Assembly: GCA_004134985.1 (NCBI GenBank)
Contig: REGQ01000002.1
Location: forward strand, 1 to 64,000
Reading direction: 5' to 3'
DNA: 64,000 nt
From: Paenibacillaceae bacterium
Lineage (GTDB): Bacteria; Bacillota; Bacilli; Paenibacillales; Paenibacillaceae
The position numbers and the translations under genes are program-made. This document shows positions 37,460 to 52,881 of the stretch, piece after piece. Under the pieces are notes generated by a model that was given only the letters and a program-made list of their open reading frames with translations, did not search any database and was not told the origin of the DNA. The stretch's first letter is position 1. Each line of letters starts with the position of its first letter.

Positions 37460-39109
37460 TTATGGTTCAACTCCCCCGGGCGGGCTTGTAATCAGGGCAG
37501 CCAATATAGCAAGATCCTTGATATCGATAACATTATCGCTGTTAAAATCATATTGCTTTAACGATTCCCAGTCCGCATCCGCAGACGTTTTTCCATAATA
37601 TTTCATGAGAAGAGCCAGATCACCAATGCTGATTTTGCCATCGCCATTAAGATCGCCGGCAAGTTTTGCTTCAATCTGTATGTCATGTGACGCTCCATCG
37701 ATTTCCAGCTCATTGCCTTCGCCGTCAGCCGCAATCAGTACCGTTACAGCTATGGTTGCGCTGCCAGCAGGGGCGTCCGCTTTTACCTTGAAGCGCAGCT
37801 TCATCAAGTCGCCTGAAGGATGCTGCAGCTCCTGGTGATGGATGCCGAGAAATCGGATTTCCCCTGGTTTCTCTTCGCTCGCAATGATCGAGAATACTTC
37901 ATCATCCACGCTCTCAAAAGCAATGAATTCCAGCTTTTCCGCATCATAGACAAGCGTCATGTCCTGTGCAATTATATTGGCGGGCAGCTCGCTGATCCCA
38001 TAAATTAAATCAAACACGTCGCTTGCTCGCACCTTATTCGTTCCTGTCAATAGCGCTTCCGGCAAGTGTTCCGCCTCTCCCAAAATTAGACGGGCAACCA
38101 GATTCAGATCCGCTTCGTCAACTTTCCCGTCACGGTTAACATCAGCCCGCGCATAGTTCGCCCAATCCGGATCAGCCGATGTTTTGCCCAGCGCGGCGGA
38201 TACGATGCCCAAATCGCCGATGGTAACCTTTCCATCACCATTTACATCGCCCCGCAATTTCTTCAAAGCGCCGTTCTTTGCCATTCGTGAAGCAGCGCCG
38301 CTGACAATCAATTCGTCGCCCTCACTGTCGGAAATGACGGATTCCAGCAGCACTGCCGCTGAAGATGCTGTCCCTGATGAAACTTTGCCCCGCCAATGCA
38401 AGGCAAGCAAGCTGCCGTCGTCGACAATGGCATGCTCTGCTCCCTCACTGGCCACTACGATCCGCACGATTCCTTGTCTTTCGTTATCAGCGGCGGAGCG
38501 AGTCGACACGGATTGGCTGACGATACGCAGCCCATCCTTCAATGGCTCTACGCCCGTAAACTCTAGTTGATCCGTATCGTATCCGATGGTGAGCACTTGT
38601 GCGAACACTCGCTGTGAATTCCCTGCAACCCCGCTTAAACCATAGGTTGTGCTAACTGAATTCCCGATACTAATTGTATCATTGCTATACAGGAATGCGC
38701 GTACATCTTGCTGCGTCGGCTGTGTGTCATCCACTGTTCCCGGCTGTCCGCTTCCTGGTGTTCCCGGCTGTCTGTCTCCCGGAGTTCCTGGCTCACCATC
38801 TCCTGGTGTTCCTGGCTCACCATCTCCTGGTGTTCCTGGCTCACCGTCTCCTGGTGTTCTCGGCTCACCGTCTCCTGGTGCCGGCTGCCCGACTTCTGGC
38901 GCTTCCAGCTCCACATTTTCTGTTCCGGTCTGGCTTTGCTCATTTGCAACCACGACTGACGAACCGCCCGCTTGCAGCTTTACCGCACCTGCACCGCTCG
39001 CCACAACTTCCGCTTGCGCCCGAGCGACCGGCTGCTGCATGAACGGTCCCGCTATAACGGCAAGCAATATTGCAACTACAGCTATTTTCTTGCCCGTGTT
39101 CATTCGCAT
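37460..39109 (-). CDS. Secreted protein with two cohesin-like and two dockerin modules
   Basis: This 549-residue protein has a signal peptide (to about 32), a PGDGEPGT repeat linker (76-125), cohesin-like domain 1 (about 138-283), dockerin 1 (286-343, GDVNGDGKVTIGDLGIV then ADVNRDGKVDEADLNLV), cohesin-like domain 2 (353-482, IAQDMTLVYDAEKLEFIAF) and dockerin 2 (484-541, GDLNGDGKISIGDLALL then DFNSDNVIDIKDLAIL). Each dockerin has two calcium-binding F-hand loops. No catalytic domain is seen, so it acts as a scaffold or adaptor joining dockerin-bearing enzymes to cohesin-bearing anchors. ATG 39109 follows GGGAGG by 7 bases; the gene is 22 bp after the SLH-cohesin gene. Confidence 0.88.
   Translation of the reverse strand: MRMNTGKKIAVVAILLAVIAGPFMQQPVARAQAEVVASGAGAVKLQAGGSSVVVANEQSQTGTENVELEAPEVGQPAPGDGEPRTPGDGEPGTPGDGEPGTPGDGEPGTPGDRQPGTPGSGQPGTVDDTQPTQQDVRAFLYSNDTISIGNSVSTTYGLSGVAGNSQRVFAQVLTIGYDTDQLEFTGVEPLKDGLRIVSQSVSTRSAADNERQGIVRIVVASEGAEHAIVDDGSLLALHWRGKVSSGTASSAAVLLESVISDSEGDELIVSGAASRMAKNGALKKLRGDVNGDGKVTIGDLGIVSAALGKTSADPDWANYARADVNRDGKVDEADLNLVARLILGEAEHLPEALLTGTNKVRASDVFDLIYGISELPANIIAQDMTLVYDAEKLEFIAFESVDDEVFSIIASEEKPGEIRFLGIHHQELQHPSGDLMKLRFKVKADAPAGSATIAVTVLIAADGEGNELEIDGASHDIQIEAKLAGDLNGDGKISIGDLALLMKYYGKTSADADWESLKQYDFNSDNVIDIKDLAILAALITSPPGGVEP
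38757..38890. repeat. 24-bp tandem repeats encoding the GEPGTPGD linker
   Basis: About five units of 24 bp (core CCTGGTGTTCCTGGCTCACC on the plus strand) encode a Gly-Pro-Glu-Asp linker in the double cohesin-dockerin protein. The number of units may vary between strains. Confidence 0.85.
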
Positions 39110-39131
39110 CGCTTATCCTCCCTTCTCCAAG

Positions 39132-40193
39132 CTACTTATCCGCCTGCTTGTAATCGAGCAAACCGAGGATCAAAGTTACTGCTTCCGCACGGGTTGTATT
39201 GTCATGAGGGACAAACCGGTTGTTTCCTCTTCCCTTGATCAACCCTGCGTTGGCTGCTGCTGCAACCGACGCGCGCGCCCACTCCGGTATATGATCCGCA
39301 TCTGCAAAGGTGAGCTTCGGCGTATCGGCAGCGCTGTTGTCTGCCTCATGATTGCCCAGTGCCCGCATAACCATCACCGTCATCTCAGAGCGCTTGATCG
39401 GCTGATCATAGCGAAACGTATTATTTTCATATCCCTTGATTACTCCGGCTCCTGCAGCTTCCAAAATAAACGGCTTCGCCCACTCAGGCGTTTGATCCCA
39501 ATCGGCAAAGGTCGTCTGCATGCCTCCGACTGAAGGCAAAGCGATCGCACGGGACAACATGGCTGTAAACTCTGCACGGGTTACTTTGCCCTGCGGTCGG
39601 AAGCTTCCGTCCGGATAACCTTCTACCCAACCGAGTGCAGCTGCGCGTTCGATGGCCTGTTTGCCCCAATGGTTGGCGATGTCGTTGAAATGAATGGTTC
39701 GTTTGCCCTGCACGATTTCCAGCGATTTTTCAGCACTCGTCTTTATGGTAGCATCCGCGATTTTGCTGTCGACGATTTTCACTTGCGTCAACTTGAATGC
39801 CGCTTTGCCTTCGGCGATGCTCTCAAATGAAAATACCGCCAGGTCGGCCGATCCGCTCACGCCTTGTTTTTTGCCAACTTTCGTATGCGCGAATGTAATC
39901 TCTCCATCCTTCACGATCGCAGGAACGGAGAACCCCTCCCAAAGTGCAGATGAGCTTTTAAACCGCAGTTTTGTCGCATCATAAGCTAAACGGATTTCAT
40001 ATCCGAATACGTCGTCAAGATGCTCTCCCTTAACCGTAACCCGCACCGTCTGGCCAATTTCAGATTGATCATTGCTAATGATCATAGCGAAGGAAGCATT
40101 GTCTGCAGCGCTTGCAAAATGCGGCAGCAGAGCTAGTCCCAGCAGCAGAGACAAACAAAGGAAAATGCTTTTACGTTTCATCGAGAAGTTCAT
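39132..40193 (-). CDS. Surface anchor protein: one cohesin domain and three SLH domains
   Basis: This 353-residue protein has a signal peptide ending near FASAAD, a cohesin domain at about 33-160 (GQTVRVTVKGEHLDDVFGYE, RLAYDATKLRF, TFAHTKVGKK, DLAVFSFESIAEGKAAF) and three SLH repeats (about 167-353, e.g. DIANHWGKQAIERAAALGWV, GSFRPQGKVTRAEFTAMLS). This is the layout of the small anchoring scaffoldins of clostridial cellulosomes: SLH binds the wall, cohesin binds a dockerin partner. Starts at 40193 and 40181 are both possible next to AAGGGAAAGG. It lies between the GH2 gene and the double cohesin-dockerin gene. Confidence 0.9.
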   Translation of the reverse strand: MNFSMKRKSIFLCLSLLLGLALLPHFASAADNASFAMIISNDQSEIGQTVRVTVKGEHLDDVFGYEIRLAYDATKLRFKSSSALWEGFSVPAIVKDGEITFAHTKVGKKQGVSGSADLAVFSFESIAEGKAAFKLTQVKIVDSKIADATIKTSAEKSLEIVQGKRTIHFNDIANHWGKQAIERAAALGWVEGYPDGSFRPQGKVTRAEFTAMLSRAIALPSVGGMQTTFADWDQTPEWAKPFILEAAGAGVIKGYENNTFRYDQPIKRSEMTVMVMRALGNHEADNSAADTPKLTFADADHIPEWARASVAAAANAGLIKGRGNNRFVPHDNTTRAEAVTLILGLLDYKQADK

Positions 40194-40256
40194 CCTTTCC
40201 CTTATATTCCATGGCTTTCATGCATGATATGATTCATGTTCTTCTGTTATGTAATT

Positions 40257-40280
40257 CCCCCCCGCAGCAAGCTGCGGGGG
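40257..40280. terminator. GC-rich hairpin after the GH2 gene
   Basis: CCCCCGCAGC and GCTGCGGGGG form a 10-bp stem with a two-base centre, 17 bp past the GH2 stop. No T-run follows on the minus strand, so it more likely slows or protects the mRNA than stops it, which would let the two downstream genes be transcribed. Confidence 0.6.
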
Positions 40281-40296
40281 AGATCCGTTCAGATGA

Positions 40297-43200
40297 TTAT
40301 TTGGTTTGAAGAATGATCGTTGCGATGGCTACCAAATCGACAATGTCGATTTTGCCGTCACGGTTGAAATCATACTTCTTGATGTCATCCCACTGAGGAT
40401 CGTCAGAGGTTTTGCCATAGTAACCTGCTACGATGGCCAAATCGCCAATCGTTACCTTGTCGTCCCCGTTGAAGTCGCCAGGCAACGCGCCATTTACTGA
40501 GGCCAGGAAAGCTTCCAGCGCTTCATTGAGGTCGGCCGTTGCTTGTTCTACAGCCTGCTGAGTCGAAGCCGGATTGTTAAGCACTTCCTGTGCAGCATGG
40601 ATGGCTTCCTGCAAGAGTGCTTTCGCACCTGCCGGATACTGCCCTGCTTTGGTTCCTTCTACAGCTGCATCATGCTTGCTTTGAGCATTGCTTATCAACG
40701 CTTCCAGCGCAGCCTTGTCGATCACGCCGATTGTTACGCTGTGGGCTGCTCCGCCAAGGCCTGTTTCCAGACCGTCACGGTTGGCAATGACAACATCCGT
40801 CAATGCGAAGGTAGCAACACCCGATACCGGTGATTTCGCCTTCCAGCTCAATTTCAGCAAACTGCCGTCGGCGCTTTCTGTTCCCAGGTTAGCCGCAATG
40901 ATGCGGACTTTGCCCGGCTCGACAGATTTGTCGATCACCTGGAATCCATCTTTGAGCGATTGGACGTCAACGAACTCGACCTTTGTATCATCATAGGAGA
41001 TCGTCAGGTCTTGCGCCAATCCGTTCTGACCGATATCGCTTAGTCCGTAGACCAGATCAAATGGTCCTCCGGATACAGCGCTTTTGGCTCCAGTCAGCGT
41101 AGCTGCCGGACCGTAAACTTCAAAGGACAAAATATTAAAGCTGGTCGACGCAGGCGTTGCGCCCAAGCCGATGACGCCATTGCCTGTTCCGCCCGGTCCG
41201 ATCTGCGGACCTAGTGGCCGCTTGCCAGACATCGTCAGTCGGATGTAGCGATTGTTGGCAGTATCAAACTGCAAATCGCTTACTGCCGAACCGTTGCTGT
41301 TCGTGCCGGTGTACAGCGTTTCCCAACTCGCATTGTCATCAGAGCCTTCAATGATCAAATTCTTGGCATAGTTGGCATACTCCCACTTAACAATCGCCCT
41401 GCTGAAATTCGTAGACTTGCCCAAATCCACTTTATACCATTGTGGATCAGCTCCTGTGCTGGCATTCGTTGAACTCTGCCATTTGGTAAACATCGAGCTT
41501 TCCAGCGCTCTGCCTGCCGTATTCGAACCTTGTGTCGATGAGGCTGTCGCTGTTTTGCCCGTAGCCAAATTGACGGAAACCGGCGAAGCACTTTGCTTGG
41601 TTACAATATTGTTATAGGCGTTCACTTCAAGTGCGACAGATGCATTGCCCAGATCAGCAAGCTTATAAGTCGCAGTCAACGTGCGCTCCTCACCAGGCAG
41701 CAGCATGAAGTAATTGTCTTCCATCGTTACCGGTGCAACAAGTTCTCCGCTATCGCCTTTTTTGATTTTGGCGAATACAGCATAGGCAATCGTGTCGCCA
41801 TTGTTTCTTACTGTATAAGTGACGGATTGATCTTGCCCTTTCGTTACGACATCAGGCGTACCGACGATTTTCAGCTCTGTCGCTTTCAACGTGTTCAACG
41901 CTGTGAAGTCGGCGAACTGATCCTGTGGCGTAAAGTTCCAACCGTGATTCTGATAGCGCATCACATCTTTTTTCAATGTCTGTGCATACGAGTTGACACT
42001 GACAAGTTTACCGCTCGCATCCCGCAGCTCCAGTCTGAGGAAGTAGGTCGGCGACAGCGGAAGCGATGCTTCATCCAGCTTGTCGATTTTGGTAATACCG
42101 TAAGCGTCTTTAATCTTACCACCGAAATTAATCGTCTGATAGCCGACTTTCTTAGGCTGTCCGCCCTCGGCAGCACTTGCGCCATCCGGCTTCACGGCAA
42201 TATTTCGCACCACTTTGTCGTATACCTTTGTGCTGTCAATATTGTAGATTTGTACGCTTGCTTTCAAGCCCTTATAATCTTCCAGCGTGGAGTTAATCAC
42301 TTTGACTTCCTTGCTGGCGTAGTCGAACATGATATGGAGCGGTTCGTTCCCTTTTTTCGCTCCGAAATACGAGCCGTTAGGATTCAGATAGTTGTCAAAC
42401 AAGTTCCAGAACATGCTCGGCCAGGCATTGTTCAACATCCACTGCACCCAACCGGACGCTTTGGTGTATTTGTTCGCATTGAGCGCCTCGAACACCGCAC
42501 GCTGCGAGTCATATTGCTGTACCTGAGCCTTGATGTTGTATTCTTCAAGATTATGCGATTCGCCATAGTGGTTATCCATCGCCGTATTGAATTTGGAGAG
42601 GTCACGGAAGCTGCCTCTGGCATTGTGGAAATTCCACTGCTGATAGTTGTCTCCGCCGACATTGTATGGCCACAATGCACTTTCCGGCAAAATTTTCTTC
42701 ATCGTCTCAACGACAGGTATGCTTGGTCCCGGTCCGGCTTCTGACGTAAAGCCAAAGGCTCCGCCCAAATCCATGTCCTCAAACCACATCGCCGGCGGTG
42801 CATAATCATAGGAAGCATCCATATGCATCCCGCTGGTCGTGCCGGTCAATGTCGCTACTTTCGCTGAGCCGCTTGAAATAATCGCTCCGTACTCATCCCA
42901 GTGGTTTCTGTTCTCAATATCGAGGAACGCCTGCTCGACTTCACGTCCGCGCTGCTTGCTGGAATACGAAGCAGGATTGTCACTGCCGTTCATCCAGGCG
43001 ATCATGCTTGGATGGACCCTTAATGCACGAAGCTGCGAATCAAGTGAATCACTGACAATCTCCAGGTCACGATCCGTATAGTCAGCCGGCTCCTGCCACT
43101 TGCTACAGCAGGTCCATCCGCCCATATAGAGCAAGCCCTTCTCATCCATCAGGTCGATCAAACGGTCATCGAAGAAAATCCCTTCATCACGAATCCCGTT

Positions 43201-44466
43201 AAGACCCATATCCACCAAATAGTCAACGACGGCAATGTTGGCGTCCATATCTCTGCGCAAGTAGAGGTCTGTTGGCGAATAACCTCCGGCTTTAATAAGC
43301 ACAGGCTTATGATTGACGTAGAATTGCACCATATCTTTGAGCGGAGGACTCGTCTTCGTGGACGGGGAGACGTTCATCTCGGTCGTCAACTCGCGAATAC
43401 CAAACCGCTGTGAAATACGGTCGGATACGCTGCTGTTCTCAGCAGTGAACTTGAACTCAACCGTGTGCATTGGTTGATCGCCCATGTTGATCGGCCACCA
43501 CAATTGCGGATTTTCGATCGTGAGCGCGCTGAATTGATCCGCCTTGAAAGCAACTTCCTGGTCTTTCACCCCGGCATTAATTGTTACCGGCTTCGAGACA
43601 TTCGCCAGCACCGTGCCGGACGGGTCTGTAATCGTTGCTTCCAACGTACCGGAAACCGCACTGGTCGAATAGTTGCTTACATCTACGTACGCGCTGAGCG
43701 TTGCAGATGAGAGATCCGGCGTTACCTTCGAGGTAACGAACGGGCTGCGTGTTGTAACGTCTCCACTGGTTGTAATGAATACATCACGCCACAAGCCCAT
43801 ATTGTTGTCCGTCGGTCTTGGCACCCAGTCCACCCAGTAGACGGAGAAATCTTCACCGAATTTGGATTTGGTTACTTCAACCGCCAACGTGTTTTTGGTT
43901 GTGCCGTCTGCGGTAACATAATTCGTAATATCCAGTTCGTAAGCACGGAATGAACCGATAATATCGTTTTTGTTAGCGATTTTCGTACCATTCACCCAGA
44001 TGTCGGCTTGGTAGCCGATACCGAGGAAATTGACCAAAATACGCTTGCCCTGCTCGGATGCCGGCAGTGTGAACTCTGTCCGGTACCACCAAGGCGAATT
44101 GTACCGGCTTTCATCGGTACGCGAGATGCGGTCATGAATGAACGGGTCTTCAATATCCCCTGCTTCAATCAGCGCACCCATGACGGTATTCGGCACACTC
44201 GTATTAAACCAGCCGTTCGTGTTGTAGCCGTTCGTTGATACTGCATCACCAGTTTGTGTGGCGATGGCCGAAGACTGGATTTTCCAATTGCTGCTCAATT
44301 GGTACACCTGGTTGTATGTAATTGCTTTTTTGAGTGTGTTGGCATCTTTGGAACTGTTGGAACTGTTGGAATCGGCGAGAACGGTAACCGATGCGAAACT
44401 GGTTATCGTCATCATCAGGGCGAGCATCATGCTAAAACCGGTTTTGAATGACTTCCTTACCTGCAT
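40297..44466 (-). CDS. Secreted GH2 glycoside hydrolase (exo-beta-glucosaminidase/mannosidase-like) with F5/8C, cohesin, FIVAR and dockerin modules
   Basis: This 1389-residue protein has a signal peptide (1-31), GH2 sugar-binding and Ig-like domains (about 55-360), a TIM barrel (about 375-680) with a likely acid/base Asp496 in WMNGSDNPAS and nucleophile Glu576 in FGFTSEAGPG, as in exo-beta-D-glucosaminidase CsxA-type GH2 enzymes, an F5/8-type C (CBM32-like) module (965-1120), a cohesin-like domain (1121-1247), a FIVAR helical module (1248-1324) and a dockerin (about 1330-1387, two DxNxDGK loops). Substrate could be chitosan, mannosylated glycan or similar. GAGGAGGAAAGG precedes ATG 44466. An enzyme with both cohesin and dockerin can link to partners on both sides. 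Confidence 0.88.
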   Translation of the reverse strand: MQVRKSFKTGFSMMLALMMTITSFASVTVLADSNSSNSSKDANTLKKAITYNQVYQLSSNWKIQSSAIATQTGDAVSTNGYNTNGWFNTSVPNTVMGALIEAGDIEDPFIHDRISRTDESRYNSPWWYRTEFTLPASEQGKRILVNFLGIGYQADIWVNGTKIANKNDIIGSFRAYELDITNYVTADGTTKNTLAVEVTKSKFGEDFSVYWVDWVPRPTDNNMGLWRDVFITTSGDVTTRSPFVTSKVTPDLSSATLSAYVDVSNYSTSAVSGTLEATITDPSGTVLANVSKPVTINAGVKDQEVAFKADQFSALTIENPQLWWPINMGDQPMHTVEFKFTAENSSVSDRISQRFGIRELTTEMNVSPSTKTSPPLKDMVQFYVNHKPVLIKAGGYSPTDLYLRRDMDANIAVVDYLVDMGLNGIRDEGIFFDDRLIDLMDEKGLLYMGGWTCCSKWQEPADYTDRDLEIVSDSLDSQLRALRVHPSMIAWMNGSDNPASYSSKQRGREVEQAFLDIENRNHWDEYGAIISSGSAKVATLTGTTSGMHMDASYDYAPPAMWFEDMDLGGAFGFTSEAGPGPSIPVVETMKKILPESALWPYNVGGDNYQQWNFHNARGSFRDLSKFNTAMDNHYGESHNLEEYNIKAQVQQYDSQRAVFEALNANKYTKASGWVQWMLNNAWPSMFWNLFDNYLNPNGSYFGAKKGNEPLHIMFDYASKEVKVINSTLEDYKGLKASVQIYNIDSTKVYDKVVRNIAVKPDGASAAEGGQPKKVGYQTINFGGKIKDAYGITKIDKLDEASLPLSPTYFLRLELRDASGKLVSVNSYAQTLKKDVMRYQNHGWNFTPQDQFADFTALNTLKATELKIVGTPDVVTKGQDQSVTYTVRNNGDTIAYAVFAKIKKGDSGELVAPVTMEDNYFMLLPGEERTLTATYKLADLGNASVALEVNAYNNIVTKQSASPVSVNLATGKTATASSTQGSNTAGRALESSMFTKWQSSTNASTGADPQWYKVDLGKSTNFSRAIVKWEYANYAKNLIIEGSDDNASWETLYTGTNSNGSAVSDLQFDTANNRYIRLTMSGKRPLGPQIGPGGTGNGVIGLGATPASTSFNILSFEVYGPAATLTGAKSAVSGGPFDLVYGLSDIGQNGLAQDLTISYDDTKVEFVDVQSLKDGFQVIDKSVEPGKVRIIAANLGTESADGSLLKLSWKAKSPVSGVATFALTDVVIANRDGLETGLGGAAHSVTIGVIDKAALEALISNAQSKHDAAVEGTKAGQYPAGAKALLQEAIHAAQEVLNNPASTQQAVEQATADLNEALEAFLASVNGALPGDFNGDDKVTIGDLAIVAGYYGKTSDDPQWDDIKKYDFNRDGKIDIVDLVAIATIILQTK

Positions 44467-44621: not shown

Positions 44622-45809
44622 TTAGTCGGTTGCTTTCTTCTTCCGGCTGTAGTAGTCGAACCAGACCGCCAGAATAAGAATGCTGCCTTTCACAATGAAC
44701 TGCCAATAGGAATCCAGGTTCATGATGCTCATCCCATTGTCGAGACTTGCCATCACGAGCGCTCCGATCAAGGCGCCGACAATCGTGCCCGCTCCGCCCA
44801 TCAAGCTCGTGCCCCCGATGACACAGGCAGCAATCGCGTCCAGTTCATACATCGTGCCGGCATTCATCGTCGCCGCATTCAGCCTGGCCGTCAAAATGAG
44901 CCCAGCAATGGCTGCAAGCGTATTACAGAGTACAAACACGAGCAGCATCCGCCGTTTGATCGGAATGCCCGACAGCTTGGCCGCTTCCTTGTTGCCGCCA
45001 ATCGCGTACACATGTCTCCCGAACACCGTATTTCTCGTAATGAAGGTGAATACCACCGCCAGAAAAATAACGAATACGAAAGGAACCGGAATGCCTTGAT
45101 ACTGATTCATCAGAATGACAAAACTTAGAATAAGCAGTCCATAGAACAGCACTTTCACCGTATGAACGGGAGCTGCTTCCACTTCAAACCCATATTTCTT
45201 ACGCGAGCTGCGCCTTCTCATCATCATAAAGACTGTAATGGCAAACGCAACCAGTGCGAGAATAAGGCCGATGCTAGGCATTACATAAGCGGTACCAATC
45301 GCCTTGAAGCTGGGCGACAGGGAGGAGACCGTCTGGCTTCCGCTGATGCCAAGCAGCAATCCGCGGAAGATCAGCATCCCCCCCAAGGTGACAATGAAGG
45401 CAGGAACCGCTCGATACGCTACCCACCATCCCTGAATCAGACCAATTAGTGCCCCCAGAGCGACGACAACAACGAGGACGGGAATCGTATTCCAGTCGTA
45501 CCAGACATTCAATATCGCTGCTACCCCGCCTGTCAGTCCAACAATCGAGCCGACTGACAGATCGATGCCGCCCGAAACGATGACAAGCACCATGCCGATC
45601 GCAAGCACAGATGTAACCGACATTTGCAGAAATAAATTGGACAGGTTGCGCGCTGTAATGAAGTTATCATTCAACAGCGAGAACAAAATCCAAATAACCA
45701 CGAGCGCGCCGATCATTGCGTAGGCTCGGACATCCATCTTAAACCACTGCAAGCGACGCTCGGTCGCATTGGTTTCATTATCGCGAGGCGTTTCCACTTT
45801 TAAGCTCAT
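44622..45809 (-). CDS. xylH: Sugar ABC transporter permease, XylH type
   Basis: This 395-residue membrane protein of the BPD_transp_2 family has about ten to twelve hydrophobic segments and family motifs (GMVLVIVSGGIDLSVGSIVG, AFIVTLGGMLIFRG, GRHVYAIGGNKEAAKLSGI, GAGTIVGALIGALVMASLDN). The extra length and the middle insert fit XylH rather than RbsC. AGGAGG in the end of xylG precedes its ATG. The GH2 gene follows after 155 bp without a strong terminator, so the hydrolase may share this transcript. Confidence 0.88.
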   Translation of the reverse strand: MSLKVETPRDNETNATERRLQWFKMDVRAYAMIGALVVIWILFSLLNDNFITARNLSNLFLQMSVTSVLAIGMVLVIVSGGIDLSVGSIVGLTGGVAAILNVWYDWNTIPVLVVVVALGALIGLIQGWWVAYRAVPAFIVTLGGMLIFRGLLLGISGSQTVSSLSPSFKAIGTAYVMPSIGLILALVAFAITVFMMMRRRSSRKKYGFEVEAAPVHTVKVLFYGLLILSFVILMNQYQGIPVPFVFVIFLAVVFTFITRNTVFGRHVYAIGGNKEAAKLSGIPIKRRMLLVFVLCNTLAAIAGLILTARLNAATMNAGTMYELDAIAACVIGGTSLMGGAGTIVGALIGALVMASLDNGMSIMNLDSYWQFIVKGSILILAVWFDYYSRKKKATD

Positions 45810-45812
45810 CGC

Positions 45813-47330
45813 TCACTTACCTCCTGTTGCGGATTCCATAATTTTCTCCTGCGTCGCTTCCGCATGCGTAAATTCTCCTGTTATTTTCCCTTCACTCAGT
45901 ACCAGAATGCGGTGGCTCATGCCCAATACCTCAGGCAACTCCGAGGAAATCATCAGGATGGCAACGCCTCTGCTCGCCAGTTCGTTCATAATATTATAGA
46001 TTTCGTACTTGGCCCCGACGTCAATACCGCGTGTCGGCTCATCCAGTATAAGCAGTTTGGGATTGGTCATCAGCCATTTGCCAAGCACCACCTTCTGCTG
46101 GTTGCCTCCGCTCAGTGTAGCCACTACCGCCTCAATTGAATGCGCTTTAATCTTGAGGGAATCCCGGTAATGGTACGCGCTGTGAATCACTTTGTTGTCA
46201 TGGATCACCCCGGCGCGGGAAACCCCCTTCAAACTGGCCAGACTAATATTGCTTTTAATGTCCATATCGAGAACGAGTCCGTATTTCCGGCGATCCTCGG
46301 AGACGAGCGCAATTCCGGCTTCAATCGCCTCCCCGGTGTTGCGAATCGCCACCGTCTTCCCTTCCATCTCCACATTGCCTTCTATTTTGGAGCCGTAAGC
46401 ACCGAACAAACTCATCACAAGCTCAGTACGTCCGGCACCCATCAGCCCGGCGATGCCCACAATCTCACCTCGCCGTACCGCAAAGGAAACATTATCGATT
46501 ACTTTTTTGCGAGACTGTTCGTCATCCCATACCGAATAATTTTGCACATCGATGACCGTTGCTCCCGGCTTCGCTTCCACATAGGCATAGCGCTCCTTCA
46601 GCTCCCGGCCGACCATAAGCGAGATCACCTTGTTCTCGTCCAGCTCGCTGGCCGGATGAGTCGCTACCGTTTGCCCGTCTCGCAGCACGGTAATCGTATC
46701 AGCGATGCTGAAAACTTCGGTCAGTTTATGGGAAATATAGATGCATGTAACGCCTTCCTGCTTGAATTTGCGCAAAATATTCAATAAAATATCCACTTCA
46801 TATTCCGTCAGCGCAGCTGTCGGCTCATCCAGAATAAGAATATGCGCCTTCTTCGCCAATGCCTTGGCGATTTCCACAAGCTGCTGCTGACCGACCCCAA
46901 GCGTGCCGGTGAGCGCATCGGGCTTAATCCCCTTCAGACCTACCTGGGCGAGCCAGCGCTCACTTTCCTGATAGATGCGGTCCCAATGCACGATGCCGAA
47001 CCGCTTGGGCTCATTTCCAAGAAAGATATTTTCCGCAACGGTCATATTTTTTGCCAAGGCCAATTCCTGATAAATAATCGCTATCCCGGCATTCTCCGCA
47101 TCTTTAATCGTATGAAACTGCTGTTTTTCACCATTGATGTGAATGCTGCCATCATAGCTCCCAGCGGGATACAACCCGCTCAGCACCTTCATCAGCGTGG
47201 ACTTGCCAGCACCGTTCTCGCCGATAAGGGCATGAATCTCGCCCTTGCCGACTTGAAAGGTCACATTATTCAATGCTTTGACACCGGGAAACTCTTTGGT
47301 TATTTGCTGCATTTCCAAAGCAATCGCCAT
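45813..47330 (-). CDS. xylG: Sugar ABC transporter ATP-binding protein, XylG type
   Basis: This 505-residue protein has two fused ATPase domains as in RbsA/XylG/MglA. The first has GENGAGKSTLMKVLSG, Walker B ILILDEPTAALT; the second has a degenerate P-loop (AGLMGAGRTELVMSLFG), LSGGNQQKVVLGKWL and LLILDEPTRGIDVGAKYEIY. It energises import of a pentose or other monosaccharide. AGGAGG lies 8 bases before ATG 47330. Confidence 0.9.
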   Translation of the reverse strand: MAIALEMQQITKEFPGVKALNNVTFQVGKGEIHALIGENGAGKSTLMKVLSGLYPAGSYDGSIHINGEKQQFHTIKDAENAGIAIIYQELALAKNMTVAENIFLGNEPKRFGIVHWDRIYQESERWLAQVGLKGIKPDALTGTLGVGQQQLVEIAKALAKKAHILILDEPTAALTEYEVDILLNILRKFKQEGVTCIYISHKLTEVFSIADTITVLRDGQTVATHPASELDENKVISLMVGRELKERYAYVEAKPGATVIDVQNYSVWDDEQSRKKVIDNVSFAVRRGEIVGIAGLMGAGRTELVMSLFGAYGSKIEGNVEMEGKTVAIRNTGEAIEAGIALVSEDRRKYGLVLDMDIKSNISLASLKGVSRAGVIHDNKVIHSAYHYRDSLKIKAHSIEAVVATLSGGNQQKVVLGKWLMTNPKLLILDEPTRGIDVGAKYEIYNIMNELASRGVAILMISSELPEVLGMSHRILVLSEGKITGEFTHAEATQEKIMESATGGK

Positions 47331-47353
47331 ACTGCCTACCTCCTGGTGCCCGT

Positions 47354-48463
47354 TTATTTAACGTTGCGATAAACGTCTTCTTTCTTATGGAAGCCTTCGG
47401 CGATTACCGTATCATCCATCGTGTCTTTAGTTGCTGCAACCGGTGCGAGCAAGATAGTTGGAACATCAACCTTGCCGTTGTTTTCTGTCGAATTGGTCTC
47501 GACCTGCTCGTCATTGACCAGCTTGATTGCAGCTACAGCCGCCGCCTCCGCCATGTCTTTGATCGATGTGTAGACGGTCATCAGTTGCGTACCTTCCACT
47601 ACCCGCTGACAAGCGGCAAGCTCGGCGTCCAATCCGCTTACAGGAACTTTGCCTGCCATATTTTGCGCTTCAAGCGCTTGAATAGCCGCTCCAGCCGTGC
47701 CGTCATTCGTGGCGATTACGGCATCGATCTGGTTGTTGTTGGCAGTCAATGCATTTTCCATATTCGCAAGCGCAACAGCCGGGTTCCAATCTTTTGTCCA
47801 TTGGTCATATACGATTTTAATGTCGCCTTTATCAACCAGTGGCTGCAGCACGTTCATTTGTCCTTGCTTATACAAGTGAGCTGAGTAGTCGGTATCTGCT
47901 CCGCCAATCAGTACATAATTTCCTTTCGGCACTTGCTCGACAACCGTCTTGGCCTGCAGCTCGCCAATCAGAATACTGTCGAATGAAATATACAGGTCAA
48001 CATCCGAATTTGTAATCAGACGGTCATAAGCGATGACCTTGATGCCGGCGGCATGGGCTTTTTCTACAATTGCTGCTGCGGCATCAGCATTATGAGGAAC
48101 GACGATCAAAATGTCTACACCTTGGCTGATCAAATTTTCTGATTGTGCAATTTGTTTCGCATCATCGCCATTGGCCGATTGAACGAGCACCTCCGCGCCA
48201 AGTTCCTCTCCTTTGGCAACCAGATAGTCGCGGTCACGCTGCCACCGTTCTTCCTGCAACGTATCCATTGAAAAACCGATTTTTATTTTTTTGTCCTTTT
48301 TGCCGCTGTTTTCTTCATTTTTCTCTTTCTCATTCGCTACGGTCGTTGAAGCGGGTTTTTCTGTGTTCGTTTTCGTTCCTGTTGTACAAGCGGACAAAAC
48401 TAACATACTGACCAAAATCAACATCGCTACTGCATTCGTTCTCCGGTTCCCTTTTTGGCTCAT
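47354..48463 (-). CDS. xylF: Sugar ABC transporter substrate-binding lipoprotein, XylF-like
   Basis: This 369-residue lipoprotein has a signal peptide with lipobox VLSACT, a charged linker, and a peripla-binding fold typical of XylF/ChvE (KIGFSMDTLQEERWQRDRD, VIAYDRLITNSDVDLYISFD, IATNDGTAGAAIQALEAQ, VPVSGLDAELAACQRVVEGTQ). D-xylose is the usual ligand of this subgroup, but glucose, galactose and arabinose binders look similar. ATG 48463 sits 9 bases from AGAGAG; GTG 48469 is an alternative. Confidence 0.88.
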   Translation of the reverse strand: MSQKGNRRTNAVAMLILVSMLVLSACTTGTKTNTEKPASTTVANEKEKNEENSGKKDKKIKIGFSMDTLQEERWQRDRDYLVAKGEELGAEVLVQSANGDDAKQIAQSENLISQGVDILIVVPHNADAAAAIVEKAHAAGIKVIAYDRLITNSDVDLYISFDSILIGELQAKTVVEQVPKGNYVLIGGADTDYSAHLYKQGQMNVLQPLVDKGDIKIVYDQWTKDWNPAVALANMENALTANNNQIDAVIATNDGTAGAAIQALEAQNMAGKVPVSGLDAELAACQRVVEGTQLMTVYTSIKDMAEAAAVAAIKLVNDEQVETNSTENNGKVDVPTILLAPVAATKDTMDDTVIAEGFHKKEDVYRNVK

Positions 48464-48513
48464 ATTCACAACTCTCTTTCCGTTATAGTTAATTACAACT
48501 TGATTGTATCAGC

Positions 48514-48528
48514 TTAAAAGCGCTTTCT
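48514..48528. promoter_or_regulatory. cre-like catabolite control site upstream of xylF
   Basis: TTAAAAGCGCTTTCT matches the Bacillus cre consensus (WTGNAANCGNWNNCW) at 14 of 15 positions. It lies about 50 bp before the xylF start and just upstream of a TACAAT -10 element on the minus strand, so CcpA could repress xylFGH and the hydrolase genes behind it when glucose is present. Confidence 0.6.
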
Positions 48529-48570
48529 TCGCGGCTATCACCTTCATTTTTTTGCGAACAGTAGCATAAT

Positions 48571-50142
48571 TTAGCGATTGGACAGCAATGCTCTCCGGTA
48601 GTCGGTTGGCGATTGGTCACAGCTTCGTTTAAAAACTCTGCTGAAGTAATTCGGATCCTGGAACCCGACATCAAGCGCAATCTCCTTCAAGCTTTTTTCC
48701 GGATCAGCCATCAGCTTCTTCGCATTTCTCACACGGCATTCGGTTAAAAAGTCAATATAGTTGGTGCCGCTTTGCTCTTTGAAAAGTTTGCTGACATAGT
48801 AAGGACTAAGCTTAACGTATGCGGCTGTAGTCTCCAGCGTAATGTTTTTATGGGAATTGGTGATTATGTACTGTTTCAGACTTTGGAATAAGTCTGGTGT
48901 CATTGTCGTTTTCATCTTCGCTACAGGCTTCATCAACTGCCCGATGCACAGCCGGGCCTCCATTTTTAATTGCGAATAATGACCGGCTTGCAGCGAAAAA
49001 TAAGGCGTCTCCAGTTGAACGCCCATCTCCGCAAGAACCCTTGCAAGCAGCAGCGTAATGCCCAGCACCTTCTGCTGGGTCTCGGCAATGCTTGCCCCCG
49101 CCGCCTCATAATGATCGATCAGCGCGCCCATGAGATGCATCACTTCATCCCCATTCCCTCTCCGCAGCTGCTCCAGTATTTGCTCTTCCATCTGCAGTGC
49201 CGCTGCGCTGTCCTGCTGTCGCCGATCAGCCCAATCCTCGTGCAGGCAATGCCGGGAAGGCAGCGTCAGGTCAATGGAGGCCAGCATCGCCTCCCGGTAG
49301 GACTTCGCCACTTCTTCAAGCGTCTCATATTCACCGCCAACCCCGATAAAACAATCAAACGCGGAATCTGAGCGAGAGCATAAATTAATAATTTTTCGCA
49401 CCAGCGAGGAAACCTGCGACCGATAGGAAGCACCAGGATCCGAGCATACGATAATTGGAATCTGCTTGCCTGACATCGCGCCTACCCAGCCGGTTTCCTG
49501 CTGACTGAACAACTGCCTTACTTTACGGTATGTCGCTTCTGTCTGGCAGCGGCTTTCTTCTTCTTCAGCCTTTTTCGGTATCAAAAAGACGACCAGCACA
49601 AAAGCTCGCTGAAAGCTTTCGATGCCGAAACAGTGCATCATTTCCGCAAGATGAATGTCATGCACATGATCAAACAACAATTGTGTCACAAGATCCGCTT
49701 CCACAATCGGCGCCAGCTTTTGCAACTGCAGCTTCTCTCTGCTGCGCATCTCCTGCTCAAACTTCTGCTGCTCGATGCGCTTTACGACATGCTGCACGGT
49801 TTCCACAATGGTGTCTGTTTTGCTCGGCTTCAGCAGGTAGTCGCTTACGTCCATGCGCAGCGCCTGCCGTGCGTATTCAAACGTGTCGTAAGCCGAGACG
49901 ATAATAAACTGCATTTGGGGCTGCAACGCCCGAATTTCTCGAATGGCTGCGAGTCCGTCCGTCCCCGGCATTTGAATATCCATCATCACCAGATCCGGCT
50001 GGAGTTCCTGGGCAAGATGGATAGCCTTTCGGCCATTCTCCGCTTCCCCGACAATACAGATCCCCGTCATATTCCGTTCCAAAATTTGCTTCAGCGCCTT
50101 CCGTTCAATGTGCTCATCATCGACAATCAGAATATTAACCAC
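48571..50142 (-). CDS. Response regulator, YesN-type (receiver plus AraC DNA-binding domain)
   Basis: This 523-residue regulator has a receiver domain (ILIVDDEHIERKALKQIL, phospho-acceptor Asp in LVMMDIQMPGTDG, LLKPSK), a long middle region and a C-terminal double helix-turn-helix (LETTAAYVKLSPYYVSKLFK, LKEIALDVGFQDPNYFSRVF). It overlaps the kinase gene by 8 bp. It should activate the xylFGH promoter just downstream in the same direction. Confidence 0.92.
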   Translation of the reverse strand: MVNILIVDDEHIERKALKQILERNMTGICIVGEAENGRKAIHLAQELQPDLVMMDIQMPGTDGLAAIREIRALQPQMQFIIVSAYDTFEYARQALRMDVSDYLLKPSKTDTIVETVQHVVKRIEQQKFEQEMRSREKLQLQKLAPIVEADLVTQLLFDHVHDIHLAEMMHCFGIESFQRAFVLVVFLIPKKAEEEESRCQTEATYRKVRQLFSQQETGWVGAMSGKQIPIIVCSDPGASYRSQVSSLVRKIINLCSRSDSAFDCFIGVGGEYETLEEVAKSYREAMLASIDLTLPSRHCLHEDWADRRQQDSAAALQMEEQILEQLRRGNGDEVMHLMGALIDHYEAAGASIAETQQKVLGITLLLARVLAEMGVQLETPYFSLQAGHYSQLKMEARLCIGQLMKPVAKMKTTMTPDLFQSLKQYIITNSHKNITLETTAAYVKLSPYYVSKLFKEQSGTNYIDFLTECRVRNAKKLMADPEKSLKEIALDVGFQDPNYFSRVFKRSCDQSPTDYRRALLSNR

Positions 50143-51604
50143 TTTGAACTCCCCCTTGATTATCTATATTCGGCAACCGCAATATAATCCGCGTTCCCCG
50201 ATTGTGAACACTTTCCATGCCGCTTTCCACTTCGATAATGTCATGCGTGCCATAAAACAGCCGCAGACGGCGGATAACGTTGTTAATCCCGATCCCTGTG
50301 GAATGTCCTTTATATGCTGCGGGCCGCTGCCCAGCGAGAATGAGCTGGACGGTGTCATGCGGAATACCTGGCCCATTGTCCTCGATTTCAATAACAACGC
50401 CCTCCGGTTCGCTGCGAACTCGGATGGCGATTTCCCCGCCTTCCTCGAAAGGCTCAATCGCGTGAATAAACGCATTCTCCACAAAAGGCTGCAAGGTAAG
50501 ACTAGGCACCTTAAACGGCAAACTTTGCTGATCAATTTCAATTGAATAGTGCGCTCGCTCTTCGAAGCGCGCTTTCTGAATGGCCAGATAATCTTCCAAG
50601 CCCTGCATCTCATTGCGGAGCGTAGTCGGAACTTCCAGGCTTTTCAAATTATAGCGCAGCAAATCGGACACCGAGATAATAAGCTCACTCGTTTCCATTG
50701 CACCTTCCAGGTAGGCCTTTTTCGATAGTGTGTTTAAGGTGTTGAATAGAAAGTGGGGGTTGATTTGACTTTGCAGACTTTTAAGTTCGCTTTCCTTGAG
50801 CAGCAGCTTGTGCTCCTGCAGATCGCGTTCCATCTGCGCTTTAATCTGCATTTCAGCAATCAGATTTTTGAGGTTTCGTCGCATGGTGTTAAGTGTACTC
50901 GCCAGAAAATTAAACTCGTCATTGGTTCGAATATCAATGCTTCGTTCAAAATTTCCCCGCGCAATTTCTCTAGCTGCAACGGTTAATGTCAGGATGGGGC
51001 GGGTTATATCTTTGGAGAATTTATAAAAGAGCAGTGAAATAATAATGGAGGTCACGACCAGCGTCCATAAGCTCAACACTCGCAAATTATTACTCTGCTG
51101 GATGATCTCTCGGTAAAAATCGCCATAAGTCGTCAGTTCCCCCCTGATGAGCGAAAGGGTTGTTTCAGCTATGTAATTTGAGGTGCTCGCTGCCTCATCA
51201 AAGTGGTAGGATGCCTTCACACTGTTTTTGTTCTGAGAAAAAGAAGCGGCTAATTGCATGGATTCGAGCTGATTATTGATCATGTTGTCGTAATTCATCA
51301 GCGCGATATAATTATTCTGATTTCGCAGGCCAAGCAGTTTTTTTTGCGTATTTTTCAGCTGTCGACTCAAGATGAGGTATTGGTTACGCGATCCTCCTGC
51401 GGAGTTGATTAAATATTGATTTAAGGCATGAATGGAGGATTGGCTTGATTCGGAAATTTGTTCAATAAGCATATATCTTTGCAATATTTCATTATAGGCT
51501 TCAATCGTTTTTTGATTGGAGTAAATCATCAGCAGCCACACAAGCAAAATAATGATCCAGATGACGACGGAGAGCGAAATGATCTTTTGATGGATGGTTC
51601 TCAT
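50135..51604 (-). CDS. Sensor histidine kinase, LytS/YesM-type
   Basis: This 489-residue kinase has an N-terminal transmembrane helix (VVIWIIILLVWLLMIYS), an extracytoplasmic region, a second helix (TLVVTSIIISLLFYKF), a HAMP domain, the His_kinase motif LKSLQSQINPHFLFNTLNTL with the phospho-histidine, and an ATPase domain (FVENAFIHAIEP, IEDNGPGI). Its ATG overlaps the stop of the upstream binding protein gene (ATGA), so the two are made together. Confidence 0.92.
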   Translation of the reverse strand: MRTIHQKIISLSVVIWIIILLVWLLMIYSNQKTIEAYNEILQRYMLIEQISESSQSSIHALNQYLINSAGGSRNQYLILSRQLKNTQKKLLGLRNQNNYIALMNYDNMINNQLESMQLAASFSQNKNSVKASYHFDEAASTSNYIAETTLSLIRGELTTYGDFYREIIQQSNNLRVLSLWTLVVTSIIISLLFYKFSKDITRPILTLTVAAREIARGNFERSIDIRTNDEFNFLASTLNTMRRNLKNLIAEMQIKAQMERDLQEHKLLLKESELKSLQSQINPHFLFNTLNTLSKKAYLEGAMETSELIISVSDLLRYNLKSLEVPTTLRNEMQGLEDYLAIQKARFEERAHYSIEIDQQSLPFKVPSLTLQPFVENAFIHAIEPFEEGGEIAIRVRSEPEGVVIEIEDNGPGIPHDTVQLILAGQRPAAYKGHSTGIGINNVIRRLRLFYGTHDIIEVESGMESVHNRGTRIILRLPNIDNQGGVQSG

Positions 51605-52578
51605 GGCGCAGAACTCTTCTTGCTGATCAGCTCTACCGGGGTGAAGTAATTTCGGTCAAGCGGGTTATCTTTCCCTTCCAGCCACCGAAGAATATGTTTC
51701 ATGCTTTTCGCTCCGATTTCTTCAGGATATTGATAAAATGCTGCGGAAATGATTCCTTGATCGAAAAATTCAAAGCTTTCCTGATCCTGGTCAAAAGCAA
51801 AAATATGATAATCCTGAATTCTGTTCCGGGCTTTGATCACTTGCACGATGCCATCTACAGCCTCAACAGTCAAACCAACAATTGCTCTGCATTCGGGATA
51901 TAGGTTAAGCAGTTCATTGCTTTCCTTCAGACCGTCCTGCTCGGATACAACCGACAAAGGCGCTTCCACAAGCTCAATCTGCGGGTAGCTGCCCCCTAGC
52001 GCGTCCTGCAGTCCCTTCTTCCTCAAAGACAAGTAGCCAATCGGCTCCGCCCCGTATACAAGACAGACTTTCTTCTCCTCATCCAGTTGGGCTGCAATAT
52101 GCTCGCCAATGACAACCCCTTCCTGATAATGATTAGGACCGACATAGGATTTGCGCAAGCTGTCCGGCGCATCGGTGAACACAGTAATGACGGCAATCCC
52201 CTTCTGTGACGCTTTATTGACGATACGGATGAAATCAGGGTTCTCCTTGCCTTGAACGATGATGCCGTCCACCCTTGCAGCAATAGCCATATCAATTGAT
52301 TTTAAATACTCTCCGAAGTCAGCGTGAAACGTCTCCTTAAACTCAATGGCCGCCTGATTATGGGATGCAACTTCATATACACCCTCTTTCACCCTGTTCC
52401 AAAAAGGACTGCCTGAATCACCCGATATGAACACAATCCGGTAGATGTCCGATTCAATGGGCTGGGGGTCATACGAAGCAGCAGGATGACTCTGTACAAC
52501 TTTAAACGTGAAGTAGGCAAACACGAACAACATAATCCCCCCGCTTGTATAAAGCGAGACGGCGATGATCTTCTTCAC
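51601..52578 (-). CDS. Membrane-tethered sugar-binding sensor protein (XylFII-like)
   Basis: This 325-residue protein has an uncleaved-looking N-terminal membrane helix (IIAVSLYTSGGIMLFVFAYF) and a periplasmic-binding type 1 domain (YRIVFISGDSGSPFWNRVKE, VDGIIVQGKENPDFIRIV, GVVIGEHIAAQL, IFAFDQDQESFEFFDQGII). In Clostridium beijerinckii an arrangement XylFII-LytS-YesN senses xylose and turns on xylFGH; the gene order here is the same. GGGAGG precedes GTG 52578; the frame opens at 52599 but without a site. Confidence 0.85.
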   Translation of the reverse strand: MKKIIAVSLYTSGGIMLFVFAYFTFKVVQSHPAASYDPQPIESDIYRIVFISGDSGSPFWNRVKEGVYEVASHNQAAIEFKETFHADFGEYLKSIDMAIAARVDGIIVQGKENPDFIRIVNKASQKGIAVITVFTDAPDSLRKSYVGPNHYQEGVVIGEHIAAQLDEEKKVCLVYGAEPIGYLSLRKKGLQDALGGSYPQIELVEAPLSVVSEQDGLKESNELLNLYPECRAIVGLTVEAVDGIVQVIKARNRIQDYHIFAFDQDQESFEFFDQGIISAAFYQYPEEIGAKSMKHILRWLEGKDNPLDRNYFTPVELISKKSSAP

Positions 52579-52881
52579 AGCGTTTTCCTCCCGCACCATT
52601 TTTTTAATAACTTCGACACATTATTTACAATCCCTCCAATTAATGATTGCGAGAACCGCCACTTTCAAAATTATTTTATAAAATTGTTAATATTATATTT
52701 ATAATCTAATTTTTTACTTTATTAATGCAATAATCGACATTTTATATCTTGGATTTATTTACTAAATTTAATATATTTCATACATTTTCCATTATTAAGC
52801 TTTCCTCAAAATTAGTATTTAAGCTAATTTCCCATGGTATACTTCCATCATATTTACCAAAACTATCATCTGGAGGATATC
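52579..52881. other. Intergenic region, AT-rich
   Basis: The divergent gap of about 300 bp is very AT-rich. The only signal I can support is an extended -10 (TGGTATACT, 52835-52843) in front of the NlpC/P60 gene, with no good -35. No RNA gene is seen. Confidence 0.4.

Follow-up and report, generated by a model that had tools for sequence, protein, structure and literature searches.

A 64,000-nucleotide stretch of a Paenibacillaceae bacterium (contig REGQ01000002.1, assembly GCA_004134985.1), referred to below in its entirety as the window, carries three adjacent minus-strand genes in the order C (40297-44466), B (39132-40193) and A (37460-39109), with intergenic gaps of 103 and 22 bases. Gene C encodes an enzyme with a cohesin and a dockerin, gene B a cohesin protein with SLH domains, here called the anchor, and gene A a protein with two cohesins and two dockerins, here called the adaptor. 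We find that C-B-A contains one instance of a two-gene module that is widespread, in which an enzyme bearing both cohesin and dockerin lies beside its own SLH-cohesin anchor, and that the third gene is an add-on. The features of the three genes are as follows, each with its basis in brackets.

40297..44466, minus strand: gene C, secreted enzyme of 1389 residues, GH2 (exo-beta-D-glucosaminidase type), CBM32-like F5/8C, cohesin, FIVAR, dockerin (Pfam, alignment)
41608..44466, minus strand: GH2 catalytic region of C, residues 1-953 (alignment)
41227..41571, minus strand: F5/8 type C (CBM32-like) module of C (Pfam)
40771..41100, minus strand: enzyme-type cohesin of C (Pfam)
40510..40719, minus strand: FIVAR spacer of C, between cohesin and dockerin (Pfam)
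40321..40482, minus strand: dockerin of C, with two intact calcium loops (Pfam, sequence)
39132..40193, minus strand: gene B, anchor of 353 residues, signal-peptide-like start, anchor-type cohesin, three SLH domains (Pfam, AlphaFold2, Foldseek)
39747..40082, minus strand: anchor-type cohesin of B, with an FAHTK motif (profile, tree)
39171..39692, minus strand: three SLH domains of B, cell-wall polymer binding by family (Pfam, fold)
37460..39109, minus strand: gene A, adaptor of 549 residues, signal-peptide-like start, Pro/Gly/Thr repeat linker, then cohesin, dockerin, cohesin, dockerin (Pfam, AlphaFold2)
38705..38914, minus strand: Pro/Gly/Thr-rich repeat linker of A, in PGTPGDGE units (sequence)
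38294..38680, minus strand: cohesin 1 of A (Pfam)
38081..38251, minus strand: dockerin 1 of A (Pfam)
37676..38044, minus strand: cohesin 2 of A (Pfam)
37496..37660, minus strand: dockerin 2 of A (Pfam)

Domains were called at the curated Pfam cut-offs, and the scores quoted for the three proteins are whole-protein scores. Gene C matches GH2 domains, F5/8 type C, Cohesin (35.1 bits), FIVAR (36.9 bits) and Dockerin_1 (34.3 bits); gene B matches Cohesin (30.7 bits, cut-off 24.1) and three SLH repeats (129 bits); and gene A matches two cohesins (92 bits) and two Dockerin_1 domains (78.9 bits). Individual scoring puts each of the window's four cohesins and three dockerins above its Pfam cut-off (24.1 bits for the cohesin family PF00963). 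The three dockerins are type I-like, matching PF00404 and carrying D1, N3, D5 and D12 in two calcium loops; read from the sequence, D-x-N-x-D with a further D at position 12 is retained in both loops of all four dockerins in the genome. By eye, each of the three proteins begins with a signal-peptide-like stretch. A sequence-only reading of this DNA had placed an SLH protein with one cohesin, a scaffold-like protein with two cohesins and two dockerins, and a GH2 enzyme with cohesin and dockerin in a row, at coordinates that match exactly. The first two proteins were described correctly, and so was the enzyme, apart from the FIVAR domain between its cohesin and dockerin, which had been overlooked. 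The profile searches that this reading offered as its check matched cohesin, dockerin and SLH above their cut-offs, and the calcium-binding residues on which it depended are kept in both loops of the window's three dockerins.

Structure prediction agrees with these assignments. The AlphaFold2 model of B has a mean predicted local distance difference test (pLDDT) score of 90.4; a Foldseek search with it ranked the SLH structure 3pyw first, the best cohesin being 2vo8 of C. perfringens; the cohesin part is also like 2jh2. B combines three PF00395 repeats with a 3pyw-like fold. As to a pyruvylated wall polymer as a possible SLH ligand, a single gene of family PF04230 is present in the genome; the family also occurs in 8 of 14 control genomes and is hence unspecific. 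Residues 137-549 of A were modelled at pLDDT 81.9 and a predicted template modelling score of 0.53, better in the second half than in the first, where the first cohesin reached about 62-87 pLDDT per ten-residue block.

The pair formed by C and B recurs throughout the family. We define it as an anchor-class cohesin with SLH domains adjoining a cohesin-dockerin enzyme on the same strand; it is found in the window, at a second locus of the same genome (contig C17) and repeatedly elsewhere in the family. Within the genus, 6/7 genomes have cohesins and 6/7 have dockerins, and in 41 genus stretches (L011-L050 and the window) a cohesin-dockerin enzyme is repeatedly, though not everywhere, followed by a small cohesin-SLH protein. 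Among 197 family genomes, 127 have a cohesin match and 79, from 15 of 19 genera, match a model of the anchor cohesin at E <=1e-8, where matches at about 63 bits or lower are possibly not anchors and scoring covered no more than 21 candidates per genome. We examined 60 regions outside the genus, mainly from the top of the match list and chosen before their neighbours were inspected. Here a same-strand dockerin gene lies within 600 bases of 57 of the 61 anchors, directly upstream in 52, at a median upstream gap of 71 bases. A hold-out set of the remaining listed places down to about 80 bits (51 regions, two more of them from the window's genus) gave 47 paired anchors out of 48 called, with the partner upstream in 39 and downstream in 9, one of these having partners on both sides; the three hold-out regions lacking a called anchor comprise two fusions (L205, L212) and one broken-looking anchor frame (L230). 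Across both sets the arrangement holds at 104 of 109 anchors, a count that includes near-copies in related genomes and so does not represent independent events, and this recurrence argues that the arrangement is not due to chance. A further genome scan gave 41 loci, distributed over Paenibacillus, Cohnella, Thermobacillus and strains that bear the label Bacillus sp.

We compared 90 non-identical pairs of anchor and dockerin gene, 80 with the partner upstream; other genomes contain several such pairs. The enzymes involved are diverse: the 85 partners whose sequence ahead of the docking tail is 200 residues or longer make up 36 sequence groups (BLAST, E 1e-20, 60% of the shorter sequence covered). 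Their 37 representatives include GH2, GH3, GH10, GH43, GH85, GH101, bacterial alpha-rhamnosidase and rhamnogalacturonan lyase, among others, with 66 Pfam families in total within, at most, the first 840 residues.

Across these differing enzymes the anchor cohesins form, by sequence, a class of their own. In the genus tree they are a clade of 21 among 67 cohesins (support 99/95), and a quick tree of 154 family cohesins (189 minus near-copies) requires 5 changes between anchor and enzyme labels, compared with about 51 on average when the labels are shuffled. The letters AHT occur in 70/90 anchor cohesins and 0/87 enzyme cohesins. The genus tree has three kinds of exception: SLH proteins with two cohesins (L024, L028, L044), which are part of another system; cohesin 1 of the L025 fusion, placed on a long branch among enzyme cohesins; and an anchor-type cohesin lacking SLH domains (L026) that falls inside the anchor clade. 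In L024, L028 and L044, which are genus mates, a cohesin-less dockerin protein adjoins the two-cohesin SLH protein, whose cohesins are of another class.

In three genera, enzyme and anchor are fused into a single chain of cohesin, dockerin, cohesin and three SLH domains (L025, in the window's genus, L205 and L212). The anchor-model match falls on the second cohesin in all three, and in the tree the second cohesin of L025 groups with the anchors. Natural fusion of genes that otherwise lie side by side is classical evidence that their products work together, and it leaves undecided which modules bind each other.

Profile searches of the 7.71 Mb genome yielded six cohesin places and four dockerin places, confined to two loci. 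The anchor-cohesin model retrieved the two anchors. No protein with more than two cohesins, and thus no primary scaffoldin, was found in the genome with the cohesin, anchor-cohesin or divergent-class models, and no dockerin-only enzyme with the dockerin and divergent-class models. We also considered hidden non-canonical dockerins that would open this inventory, and rejected them: a model built from five proteins of a class lacking the first loop returned already known places only and no extra dockerin, with the limit that these models would all miss a sufficiently divergent dockerin. The four dockerins sit on three proteins, each of which also bears a cohesin, so the non-anchor cohesins have no encoded partner other than cohesin-bearing proteins. 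If they bind any self-made dockerin, they must therefore link enzymes and adaptors to each other or to themselves.

The second locus (L011 on C17) encodes an 872-residue F5/8C-cohesin-dockerin protein followed by a 366-residue protein with a cohesin and three SLH domains. At their first loop the genome's four dockerins have [ST]IGDL in common, which makes cross-docking between the two loci as likely, in our view, as private pairing. Within L011:10021-14643 the cohesin-dockerin enzyme adjoins a paralogue with neither module. The catalytic domain of the enzyme shows no more than a weak DUF4185 match, and the F5/8C module of the paralogue scores 126 bits against 4zy9.

The docking tails of the 90 partners are of several types: cohesin and dockerin are nearly adjacent in 40, separated by a spacer of 80-130 residues in 24 and by a longer one in 23, and three partners have a dockerin only. 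A crude FIVAR-like signature was detected in 22 of the 24 tails with the 80-130-residue spacer. In the window, C belongs to this FIVAR class and A has two pairs of the adjacent type. Dockerins that lack a canonical first loop and keep helix 1 (L015, L036, L038, L046, L147 and others) have a long spacer and an ordinary anchor as partner. As for A, no other protein annotated in the genus stretches or the first family set has its cohesin-dockerin-cohesin-dockerin design. Other small genes of the genus lie directly 3' of the anchor: one for a 308-residue cohesin-dockerin-dockerin protein (L048) and two for proteins with signal-like starts and a linker that is acidic or rich in Gly/Pro (L019:9190-9708, 172 residues; L030:7859-8545, 228 residues), in which one dockerin is the sole match of the three models used.

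The catalytic part of C resembles exo-beta-D-glucosaminidase. Residues 17-953 (937 residues) align with the exo-beta-D-glucosaminidase CsxA (2vzs) at E 1.4e-139, and the catalytic Asp and Glu are kept: D496 and E576 of C fall on D469 and E541 of CsxA, the acid/base and the nucleophile, respectively. The closest solved relatives of the CBM32-like module are the glucanase/chitosanase module 4zy9 and its kin (62.6 bits), presumably from Paenibacillus IK-5; some of the residues that we take to contact chitosan in modules of this type seem altered in C. C would probably be an exo-beta-glucosaminidase that acts on oligosaccharides of the chitosan type; a glucosaminide is our best guess at its substrate, and this assignment is weak. 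Minus-strand genes at 44622-52599, leading into C, encode an extra sugar-binding protein, a two-component system and a xylose-type (XylFGH-like) ATP-binding cassette (ABC) transporter. This array is possibly the sensing and uptake half of the C-B-A locus.

From the domains, the calcium loops, the gene adjacency, the cohesin classes and the closed inventory, we infer a surface enzyme display system that would operate without a scaffoldin. B would be secreted and, as its family suggests, held on the cell-wall polymer by its three SLH domains, and its anchor-type cohesin would capture the dockerin of C, so that C works at the cell surface. The cohesin of C would then stay free to take up a further dockerin, be it from a second C molecule, from A or from the enzyme of the second locus, and enzymes could be strung head-to-tail through their cohesins. 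A, with its two cohesins, two dockerins and flexible linker, might extend or branch such a chain, in which the small genes of the L048, L019 and L030 type could serve as branching units or caps. C would feed the sugar ABC transporter encoded just upstream. The parts of this model differ in strength. Capture of the enzyme by its own anchor is likely, and chain growth through the enzyme cohesin is conceivable at odds just short of even. For display on the anchor combined with some degree of docking between enzymes, in whatever form, we estimate a probability of roughly 0.6.

Several observations weigh against this display-and-docking model. The adjacent dockerin gene is missing at 4/61 anchors of the first set and 1/48 of the hold-out set, and the partner has only a dockerin in 3/90 pairs. 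The anchor cohesin on C17 scores 20.7 bits, below the Pfam cut-off; it reaches 151 bits with the anchor model, whose alignment contains the C17 row itself. Of the 87 partner dockerins on proteins that also have a cohesin, 33 depart from a strict pattern of the first calcium loop (23/23 with the long spacer, 7/24 with the middle one, 3/40 of the adjacent type), from which it follows that not all members could dock alike. As the motif is not the same in anchor and enzyme cohesins, one dockerin might fit only one class. Finally, in a distance test the correlation between anchor and dockerin was 0.34 given the SLH part of the anchor (reached in 0/999 permutations) and -0.07 given the enzyme cohesin. 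The test does not separate co-evolution of anchor and dockerin from common inheritance, as the enzyme cohesin and the dockerin travel as one cassette.

The class difference between cohesins also lends itself to an account of anchoring without chains, in which the anchor cohesin binds the dockerin and the enzyme cohesin is closed in cis, forms dimers only or binds another ligand such as a sugar or a wall part: enzyme cohesins, being of another class, may differ in the dockerins that they bind. Within one enzyme, cohesin and dockerin co-vary strongly (r 0.82), which fits binding in cis but equally any inherited cassette. Fewer than 40 residues, by model bounds, separate the two modules in 40/90 pairs, making a fold-back in cis unlikely, and we regard this account as a serious but unlikely one. 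Another account, that the cohesins mainly serve to capture dockerin enzymes of other microbes, was raised as a possibility for P. guangzhouensis in a 2024 survey (PMC11557425). None of the dockerins in the genome, and few in the genus, sit on a cohesin-less protein, as such scavenging would lead one to expect; the near-constant gene pairing and the natural fusions point instead to a self-made partner, which makes scavenging as the main role quite improbable. Even less credible is a passive, calcium-stabilised tail that binds nothing. Binding of the modules is a prediction, and the 33 loop failures among partner dockerins suit such an appendage, but the calcium loops are retained in all four dockerins of the genome, the anchor motif is conserved, and both the spread of anchor-type matches over 15 of 19 genera and the gene pairing speak for a working part.

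The sequence-only reading had favoured a minimal complex built from the three genes and, unlike cellulosomes, dedicated to one substrate; it took SLH-cohesin anchors and cohesin scaffolds as hallmarks of clostridial cellulosomes. Its core is supported: a cohesin-dockerin enzyme system, anchored at the surface, in a genome of Paenibacillus type that lacks a large scaffoldin. That the three genes stand alone is contradicted by the second locus with the same pair, the conserved unit being two genes to which a third was added. Dedication to one substrate does not follow either, given the shared [ST]IGDL, the several pairs in other genomes and the 36 partner groups. Nor is the comparison with cellulosomes alone supported: the nearest solved cohesin and FIVAR-dockerin relatives are non-cellulosomal C. 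perfringens modules as much as cellulosomal ones. A classical minimal cellulosome, with A as the scaffoldin for a single substrate, would make sense of A's two cohesins and of B as an SLH anchor. It is improbable in view of the existence of a second enzyme and anchor locus and of A's design, unmatched among the proteins compared. We rejected a classical cellulosome as such because the large scaffoldin and the dockerin-only enzymes that define it were not found in the genome.

A strong hairpin without a T-tract was found by folding between C and B (40253..40285, minus strand) and is a possible mRNA processing or attenuation site. Among related loci, 49/68 enzyme-anchor gaps fold more than 2 standard deviations beyond mononucleotide shuffles, compared with 49/144 control gaps, whereas stems of at least 8 pairs are not commoner (42/68 vs 86/144) and those of at least 10 pairs occur in 37/68 vs 64/144 (Fisher p 0.19). 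With this mixed result, in which long stems are not more frequent, we do not claim an intercistronic hairpin as a shared feature of the pairs. The region has 12 promoter-like sites (shuffles 7.9, standard deviation 2.8) and 2 terminator-like sites (shuffles 7.7, standard deviation 2.9), counts from which we claim no promoter or terminator. Elsewhere in the window, at 11405-12886, lies a further three-SLH protein of 493 residues with no cohesin or dockerin match.

Enzymes and anchors of this kind are already known in one species. The 2024 genome survey of P. guangzhouensis lists 28 proteins with a single dockerin-cohesin pair, many with an N-terminal glycoside hydrolase (GH2, 20, 29, 31, 43), and five SLH-anchoring proteins, in an arrangement termed architecturally distinct from conventional cellulosomes (PMC11557425). 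That survey concerns one species, and its section on these proteins does not mention how the genes are paired, a cohesin class specific to anchors, any fusion or adaptor gene, or counts across the family (PMC11557425). Judged by titles and the beginnings of abstracts, no paper in the open-licence literature searched on Paenibacillus or Bacilli cohesin-dockerin-SLH systems treats the pairing of the genes, the class of anchor cohesins or the natural fusions, and the pairing rule was not found there. Paenibacillus multi-enzyme or surface systems described with SLH terms include those of Paenibacillus curdlanolyticus S1 and the chitinase ChiW (PMC6823336, PMC5132251).

We tentatively propose, with more doubt than confidence, that aerobic Paenibacillaceae widely use an extracellular mode of assembly distinct from the cellulosome, in which each enzyme would be its own scaffold beside a neighbouring SLH-cohesin anchor of a separate class, enzymes would join into head-to-tail chains at the surface, and small dockerin-only or multi-module adaptor genes would cap or branch them. 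If true, cohesin-dockerin assembly would not be restricted to anaerobic cellulose degraders, and soil bacilli would have a general route to display glycosidases and lyases of widely differing kinds, with a separate gene pair for each enzyme. An enzyme acting as its own scaffold would also allow the polymerisation of enzymes outside the cell to be studied in a simple and testable model, and the modules could provide new docking pairs for protein engineering.

In C. perfringens, enzymes dock with enzymes through non-cellulosomal modules (2ozn, 2jnk, 2jh2, 2vo8), and the system described here is like them in its closest cohesin folds and in the FIVAR-dockerin tail of C, for which 2jnk/2ozn are the closest solved structures. 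Unlike the C. perfringens enzymes, those of the Paenibacillaceae pairs carry cohesin and dockerin on one enzyme; an SLH-cohesin anchor is encoded alongside. With the clostridial cellulosome the system shares an SLH-cohesin anchor and dockerin enzymes, and A resembles an adaptor scaffoldin. It differs in that neither a primary scaffoldin nor a dockerin-only enzyme was found in this genome, and in that the enzyme itself would be the adaptor.

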